64,000 nt of DNA from assembly GCA_020845515.1 (NCBI GenBank), contig JADLFQ010000072.1, positions 20,867 through 84,866 of the forward strand, in the 5' to 3' direction. The notes under the pieces are model-generated. The model was not told where the DNA came from and did not search any database. It saw nothing but the letters and a program-made list of their open reading frames with translations. Within the stretch, counting starts at the first letter, position 1, and every line of letters begins with the position of its first letter. Source of the stretch: Anaerolineaceae bacterium. GTDB taxonomy: Bacteria; Chloroflexota; Anaerolineae; Anaerolineales; Anaerolineaceae. The translations under genes and the position numbers were made by a program. Below are positions 11,752 through 35,816 of the stretch, piece by piece.

Positions 11752-11922
11752 ATGAAACTCAATGCACCAAAACAAGTAACCTGGTGGATAGCGCTGATTT
11801 TAGGCGCCCTCGGGTTGATTGCTTCGCTGGTTACTGTGCCGGTCCTTTCCGGTCTGGCGTTATGGCTGCTGGTAATCGGCTGGGCGCTGCTGCTTGTGGC
11901 AACCGTAACCAAAGGGTTGTAA
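11752..11922 (+). CDS. 56-residue two-helix membrane protein
   Basis: Too short for the ORF track. ATG follows AAGGAGGGTTTAAGGT, a strong SD. The protein (MKLNAPKQVTWWIALILGAL, then two hydrophobic segments and a GLALWLLVIGWALLLVATVTKGL end) consists of two TM helices separated by a short VTVPVLSG turn. It has its own promoter upstream and a strong intrinsic terminator downstream, so it is a monocistronic gene. I recall similar short hypothetical proteins in Anaerolineae; no function is known. Confidence 0.75.
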   Translation: MKLNAPKQVTWWIALILGALGLIASLVTVPVLSGLALWLLVIGWALLLVATVTKGL

Positions 11923-11959: not shown

Positions 11960-11983
11960 GCCCCGCCGCTGGCGGGGCTTTTT
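11960..11983 (+). terminator. Intrinsic terminator of the 56-aa membrane protein gene
   Basis: GCCCCGCC-GCT-GGCGGGGC followed by TTTTT: an 8-bp perfect GC stem with a 3-nt loop, 38 bp after the stop. Confidence 0.9.
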
Positions 11984-12034: not shown

Positions 12035-12069
12035 AAAAAACGCCACGGGTCCGGCGCTGCACCCGCGGC
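12035..12069 (-). terminator. Intrinsic terminator, minus strand
   Basis: Read on the minus strand: GCCGCGGGT (12069-12061), 10-nt loop, ACCCGTGGC (12050-12042), then GTTTTTT. All nine stem positions pair (one G-T). No minus-strand protein gene ends nearby; the nearest upstream one ends at 12545, across a plus-strand gene. Confidence 0.8.
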
Positions 12070-12097
12070 AATGGAAGTTGCTTAGTGACTGGCAACA
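12035..12097 (-). ncRNA. Candidate small RNA with own promoter and terminator
   Basis: On the minus strand TTGACA (12133-12128), an 18-bp spacer and TAGAAT (12109-12104) form a strong promoter. Transcription would start near 12097 and end in an intrinsic terminator at 12069-12035, giving an RNA of about 60 nt. It contains a 5' stem GUUGC/GCAAC (12096-12092 with 12081-12077, 10-nt loop), a short linker and the terminator hairpin. No ORF with an SD fits inside. It is convergent with the 56-aa gene's terminator and divergent from the DUF1330 gene. No RNA family recognised. Confidence 0.5.
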
Positions 12098-12103
12098 GAC
12101 GCG

Positions 12104-12133
12104 ATTCTATCACCCTTTCTGTGCATATGTCAA
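12104..12133 (-). promoter_or_regulatory. Promoter of the candidate small RNA
   Basis: Minus strand TTGACA - 18 bp - TAGAAT, the -35 perfect and the -10 differing in one base from consensus. Confidence 0.6.
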
Positions 12134-12229
12134 GAATTTTGGTGACAGAATTTTTATGACGAATATGGCATAATAATCAAATGAGGCGCTTGGGCTTTCG
12201 AGCGCGATCACTGTAATACAGGAGGAGCC

Positions 12230-12535
12230 ATGCCGAAAGGATATTGGATCGTACGTGTGGATGTCGCCGATGAGGCACAGTATAAACAGTATCTCGCCGC
12301 CAACGGCGAAGCGTTTAAGAAATACGGCGCCCGCTATTTGGTGCGCGGCGGAAATTTTGAAAGTGTGGAAGGAACCAGCCGGGCGCGCAATGTTGTGCTT
12401 GAATTTCCTTCCTATGAAGAGGCGCTGGCGTGCTACCGCTCACCGGAGTACCAACGCGCTCTGGCTTTTCGCAAGCCAGCATCCACCGGCGACCTGATCA
12501 TTATCGAAGGGTACGAGGGCGCGCAGCCTGGTTAA
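12230..12535 (+). CDS. DUF1330 family protein
   Basis: 101 residues of the DUF1330 dimeric alpha/beta-barrel family: GYWIVRVDVADEAQYKQYLAANGEAFKKYGARYLVRGG, ARNVVLEFPSYEEALACYRSPEYQ and a C-terminal GDLIIIEGYE strand. Function of the family is unknown; the fold resembles small ligand-binding or monooxygenase-like barrels. ATG follows AGGAGGAGCC. A candidate extended -10 (TGGCATAAT near 12165-12173) lies upstream. Confidence 0.92.
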   Translation: MPKGYWIVRVDVADEAQYKQYLAANGEAFKKYGARYLVRGGNFESVEGTSRARNVVLEFPSYEEALACYRSPEYQRALAFRKPASTGDLIIIEGYEGAQPG

Positions 12536-35396: not shown

Positions 35397-35816
35397 GCTC
35401 CATTCTCCCGGAGCGCATTGCGCTTGTTGGATATGATCAAAGACATATATTCTCCGCGATTATTTTACCCTGCTTCTGCCCCTGCCAGTCATCATTAAAT
35501 ATTCACTCTCCGAGCAGATTCTGCCGGCAGATATCTGCGCCACAGCCAATTCGGGCCGCCCTGGTTATCCGCCCCCTTTGCGGCGCGGCGGTAAAACCCT
35601 TTTTTCGCGAGCCGCCGGGATGGTAACCCAAGCGCAACCCTCCCGGTTTATTGTCAAAGATCATTTGTCTGGACATTTTCAGATAAAACGGATATTATTT
35701 ATCCGCCTGCCGCTTTTTGGGTGTGCACGCGGTGTTTTTTCACCCAGCATTAATCTAACTGTGGCAGAATATGTAGATATTAATCGTGTTATGCAGTTAT
35801 TTTTGGAGGCAGGTAC
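35397..35816. other. Intergenic region before ccmE, no gene seen
   Basis: 420 bp between the divergent hydrolase and ccmE genes. No ORF with an SD on either strand. Contents: the ccm promoter (35670-35698), an overlapping inverted repeat CGGATA-TTATT-TATCCG (35689-35705) that spans the -10 and start site, and a GC-rich patch around 35570-35600. Confidence 0.6.
35670..35698 (+). promoter_or_regulatory. Promoter of the ccm operon
   Basis: TGGACA (35670-35675), 17-bp spacer, TATTAT (35693-35698); leader about 110 nt. The palindrome at 35689-35705 overlaps the -10, a natural repressor position. Confidence 0.6.

Follow-up and report, generated by a model that had tools for sequence, protein, structure and literature searches.

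The window, which is the whole 64-kb stretch of DNA analysed here, carries in an intergenic region of its minus strand a predicted promoter and a strong predicted terminator that lie ~40-60 nt apart. The features of this unit and of its neighbourhood, with their status in the sister genome G001, are as follows:

12128..12133, minus strand: −35 hexamer TTGACA, from the sequence and a promoter scan; identical in G001
12104..12109, minus strand: −10 hexamer TAGAAT, with an 18-nt spacer and TG before it; GGGTGATAGAATC identical in G001
12035..12097, minus strand: predicted RNA of ~63 nt, with the start placed by inference ~7 nt past the −10 box and the fold computed
12082..12102, minus strand: GCGTCTGTTGCCAGTCACTAA, possible relic of a leader ORF end, for which the family consensus is GCGCCTGTT...; gone in G001
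12077..12096, minus strand: 5-bp 5' hairpin with loop CAGUCACUAA, from folding; absent as a hairpin in G001
12042..12069, minus strand: intrinsic-terminator hairpin GCCGCGGGT-GCAGCGCCGG-ACCCGTGGC, of the attenuator-family stem type; stem identical in G001
12035..12040, minus strand: T6 tract, from the sequence, with G 12041 just before it
11752..11922, plus strand: convergent 56-aa membrane-protein gene; synteny kept in G001, 71% identity
11105..11542, minus strand: TPR-like membrane protein gene, the first one downstream on the same strand; synteny kept in G001, 58% identity

Direct reading of the minus strand finds all of the signals that the sequence-only reading had reported, namely TTGACA-18-TAGAAT, a nine-pair hairpin and six T. 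The spacer ends GGGTGA, which supplies the TG of an extended −10 element, and the sequence between TAGAAT and the terminator hairpin is GTCTGTTGCCAGTCACTAAGCAACTTCCATT. The 5' hairpin pairs GTTGC (12096-12092) with GCAAC (12081-12077) around the loop CAGTCACTAA; the single-stranded stretch TTCCATT follows at 12076-12070; and the terminator pairs its arms at 12069-12061 and 12050-12042 through 7 G-C pairs, 1 A-U pair and 1 G-U pair. The 63-nt RNA folds as had been drawn, at -25.1 kcal/mol (z -2.1), with the terminator supplying most of the energy. The promoter, with a score of 11/12, is the best within its 6.5 kb in the promoter scan. A count of promoters with at least 11/12 matches followed within 120 nt by a terminator of at least 8 bp gives 1 pair in the 64-kb window and 0 in 60 dinucleotide shuffles of it, which bears out the earlier claim that the order promoter-RNA-terminator is hard to obtain by chance.

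The earlier claim that no protein gene owns either signal also holds: the minus-strand neighbourhood contains no plausible owner of the promoter or the terminator, and the nearest same-strand gene, the TPR gene, lies ~490 nt past the terminator, beyond the convergent 56-aa gene, which has a terminator of its own at 11960-11978. The upstream neighbour is a DUF1330 gene in the window vs. an aminotransferase-like gene (named by eye) in the corresponding G001 locus, L002. A TATGGCATAATAAT stretch lies upstream of the DUF1330 gene, at 12140-12230 on the plus strand, and transcription of the unit and of the DUF1330 gene may diverge from the common intergenic region. The unit has no Rfam match at the gathering score, gives only sub-threshold Rfam matches at a lax threshold, and has no match in viral contigs.

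Conservation of the unit within its genus

The comparison within the genus rests on two genomes, the window genome (G000) and G001. A DNA search of 61 relatives identified in G001 an orthologous unit with 72% identity (E 2.8e-6); the other matches, where inspected, were short and low-scoring, lay mostly in GC-rich coding sequence, and were rejected. CTTGACA, the −10 region and 18/18 bases of the terminator stem are identical in the two units, as is TGATAGAATC, in spite of only 58-71% identity between the neighbouring proteins. The upstream portion of the spacer, some of the terminator loop and almost the entire RNA body have diverged, the RNA body with insertions and deletions. The hexamers and stem carry no change at all between the two genomes, and there is accordingly no covariation. 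In both genomes the unit is followed by the convergent 56-aa gene and then the TPR gene. The expectation that the unit would be conserved among relatives was thus borne out where the promoter and terminator are concerned, but not for the 5' hairpin, which is unable to form in G001; neither its loop nor UUCCAUU is kept there. Because the hexamers and stem are identical while the RNA body diverges, what selection appears to preserve is where the predicted transcript starts and stops, not its middle.

The unit's conservation stops at the genus. Across the taxonomic family (147 genomes) the G001 unit was the only other one found with a promoter and terminator at such spacing, and no matching unit was seen, by eye, around homologs of the 56-aa gene in other genera. 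A weak R1 match at L146 in G081 was rejected as an ortholog, since its promoter and terminator stand 55 nt before a dihydroorotase-like gene. This locus (L146:1501-1611; G081:C6:65707-65817) has a short promoter-terminator leader followed by a second, GAGAGCC/GGCTCTC terminator, and the leader is a probable pyrimidine attenuator.

A family of leader-peptide attenuators in Anaerolineales

Searches with the window unit surfaced loci in which the same terminator stem stands behind a small ORF. These '(S/C)R(S/I/N)APV' leader-peptide attenuators of Anaerolineales are apparently an undescribed family: none of the papers searched describes a SAPV-type leader, and 8 sampled leader loci had no relevant match in Rfam. 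The loci have in common CTTGACA and an extended −10 element separated by a 17-18-nt spacer, followed by the Shine-Dalgarno sequence AAAGGA and an ORF of ~25-35 codons whose product ends P(S/C)R(S/I/N)APV and one or two further residues; behind the ORF lies a hairpin, often accompanied by another of identical stem, and then a gene that typically adjoins the leader closely. The one or two terminator hairpins have the stem GCCACGGG/CCCGTGGC (loci L174-L203 and L247-L266; for example L183, L194, L174 and L256). The genes behind the leaders include those encoding GNAT acetyltransferases, ABC-F ribosomal-protection-like proteins, MsbA-like ABC exporters, MFS efflux pumps, RsgA and RNHCP. A strict pattern (GCGCCTGTT, 15-45 nt, CACGGG, 6-20 nt, CCCGTGG) occurs in 35 of 400 genomes of the order, with 0 occurrences of the reversed control, and a model of the SAPV-type leader has matches at E up to 0.1 in 117 of the 147 family genomes, a count that mixes many strong matches with some that are weak or cover only the hairpin.

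According to the mechanism that we propose for this family, free translation of the leader would allow the hairpin to form and transcription to stop, and a ribosome that a drug stalls early would leave the end of the ORF free to base-pair with the stem's 5' arm, so that transcription would continue. Candidate antitermination pairings (Shine-Dalgarno GGCGCA/TGCGCC; CCUGU/ACGGG) rise above shuffles in several members, but with median shuffle fractions of 0.15 and 0.22 they are suggestive, not decisive. SAPV-type attenuators probably let the largely uncultured bacteria of this Anaerolineales family respond to ribosome-targeting antibiotics. In L178, L183, L194 and L175 the tandem hairpins often have a common stem sequence, and the arms of hairpins 1 and 2 could for that reason swap partners. 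A few leaders (L179, L181, L201 and L203) have a shifted reading frame from the start and run through the conserved stretch CGGAGTGCGCCTGTT in that frame, ending ECAC or ECACY; the conserved nucleotides may therefore matter in themselves, as RNA or via frame changes.

Probable kinship of the unit to the attenuator family

The stem of the window unit is GCCrCGGG/CCCGTGGC with a U-tract, the same as in the attenuator family. The pattern GCCRCGGGN{4,20}CCCGTGGCNTTTT has 41 sites in the 147 family genomes, and reversed-pattern controls have 0. Thirty-six of the sites adjoin listed leader-model matches and 1 (in G002) belongs to a leader recognized by eye; the remaining sites are the window and G001 units (2) and both strands of one palindrome (2). 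Because nearly all of the 41 sites belong to leaders, a hairpin of the GCCRCGGG type predicts a leader attenuator. The window hairpin is the only one of its type in its genome. A covariance model, R2, built from 24 leaders, none of them from the window genus, also finds the unit, as its sole match in G000 (29.2 bits, full length, E 2.5e-4 for the genome); in G001 the same model finds a true leader at 72.6 bits and the orthologous unit at 22 bits, by its hairpin only. A second, 14-bit R2 match in the window, at 35405-35466, was rejected, there being no hairpin of the type there.

The sequence before the window hairpin, AGA ATC GCG TCT GTT GCC AGT CAC TAA, would read R-I-A-S-V-A-S-H-stop, of which R-I-A-S-V resembles the family ORF end R-(S/I/N)-A-(P/S)-V. 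The A-S-V variant, with the same GCGTCTGTT as in the window, is found in L256, a leader before an ABC-F gene. The motif GCGCCTGTT, located 20-40 nt before the stem, has one mismatch in the window and is absent in G001; the part before the hairpin adds ~7 bits to the window match, a suggestive amount that could be chance. Because it overlaps the −10 region and the predicted start, and would be only partly transcribed, the putative relic is not a conserved part of the RNA. The distance from promoter to motif is 31 nt in the window vs. mostly 107-184 nt in the family. The promoter likeness itself (TTGACA, extended −10 element, 17-18-nt spacer) is present but weakly specific, since consensus promoters are alike anyway.

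No leader ORF lies between the start site and the terminator in G000 or G001, and the window unit has no Shine-Dalgarno sequence, no second hairpin and no resistance or translation-stress gene directly downstream on the same strand. The frame M-H-R-K-G-D-R-I-A-S-V-A-S-H was rejected as a real leader: it coincides in part with the promoter, and G001 has no equivalent frame. Because leader ORF and target gene are absent, we do not class the unit as a working attenuator; it looks like a member of the family stripped to promoter and terminator. The earlier description of a complete small-RNA unit thus stands as regards a short unit, on the evidence of sequence, shuffles and conservation in G001, and gives way as regards a plain small-RNA gene. 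Since its terminator ties the unit to a widespread family of leader attenuators, which the earlier description had not recognized, a better name is an orphan, ORF-less attenuator-like unit with a short terminated RNA as its probable product.

Interpretation and comparison with known systems

The promoter, the terminator, their conservation and the kinship of the hairpin are established at the level of sequence. The reading that we favour, with confidence somewhat above even, is that the unit is an orphan, ORF-less derivative of an attenuator, a short transcription unit making a ~63-nt terminated non-coding RNA. An ancestral leader would have lost by deletion its ORF (~110 nt, with Shine-Dalgarno sequence and antitermination partner) and its downstream gene, and selection would have retained the promoter and terminator since the split from G001. 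The extended −10, sigma-70-type promoter would then run straight into the intrinsic terminator. The window transcript would start inside the former ORF end, with only weak pairing (by eye) to GCGGG, and the terminator would act constitutively, because in a unit with no ORF no ribosome stalling prevents termination.

An independent gene for a trans-acting sRNA that base-pairs through its loop or single-stranded stretch, its attenuator-like terminator being coincidental, would explain the intergenic position, the promoter and terminator of its own and the kept synteny; we nevertheless consider it unlikely, since the putative seeds (the loop and UUCCAUU) and the 5' hairpin are not kept between the two genomes, Rfam has no match, and the stem type occurs elsewhere only in leader attenuators. 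That no seed is conserved thus speaks against an ordinary base-pairing sRNA, and because the RNA body is not conserved it is more likely that the hairpin, or the act of transcription, would matter than a base-pairing seed. That an antibiotic-response leader attenuator, on deletion of its ORF and target, became a stand-alone, selected sRNA gene whose conserved hairpin acts in trans, for example by titrating a factor that acts on attenuators or by pairing with the arms of the leaders' tandem hairpins, seems to us a distinctly unlikely extension.

The gene order kept in both genomes would also suit a working attenuator of the TPR gene (11542-11105), with conditional readthrough crossing the 56-aa gene as antisense RNA. 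This we regard as improbable: typical family members sit close to their gene, and here the TPR gene is ~490 nt away, behind a convergent gene that has a terminator of its own, and the unit lacks both leader ORF and antitermination partner. Decay of an attenuator on which selection no longer acts would account for the loss of the ORF and target gene and for the freely diverging middle, but it leaves the identity of the hexamers and of all stem bases, next to proteins 58-71% identical, unaccounted for, and we give it little credence. Chance promoter-like and terminator-like sequences that are never transcribed are conceivable for a unit predicted from sequence alone, and are highly improbable given 0 of 60 shuffles and conservation specific to the promoter and terminator.

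The orphan attenuator derivative would be a concrete case of an RNA switch turning into an independent transcript. Its analysis also brought to light an attenuator family, apparently undescribed, in most of the searched genomes of this Anaerolineales family, and the parent family, more interesting than the window unit, merits a study of its own.

With SAPV-type attenuators the window unit shares TTGACA and the extended −10 element, the 17-18-nt spacer, and the GCCrCGGG stem with its U-tract, and its GCGTCTGTT may correspond to the family ORF end; it differs in having no leader ORF, Shine-Dalgarno sequence, second hairpin or target gene. Two systems are reported in which, as proposed here, a short terminated attenuator RNA is a product in its own right: rnTrpL of Sinorhizobium meliloti, a trans-acting attenuator RNA (PMC7298713), and Rli51 of Listeria (PMC11394854). 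Both are reported to keep a leader-peptide or 5'UTR role and a downstream gene, whereas the window unit does not. The drug-induced attenuators described for ARE ABC-F genes and their like include those of vmlR (PMC9226507), msrD (PMC10314930) and HflXr (PMC6310831), and the target genes of the SAPV family (ABC-F, GNAT, efflux, RsgA and RNHCP) are, by comparison with these, the set typical of attenuators induced by ribosome-targeting drugs; the window unit, in contrast, has no such gene and would be unable to sense ribosome stalling.
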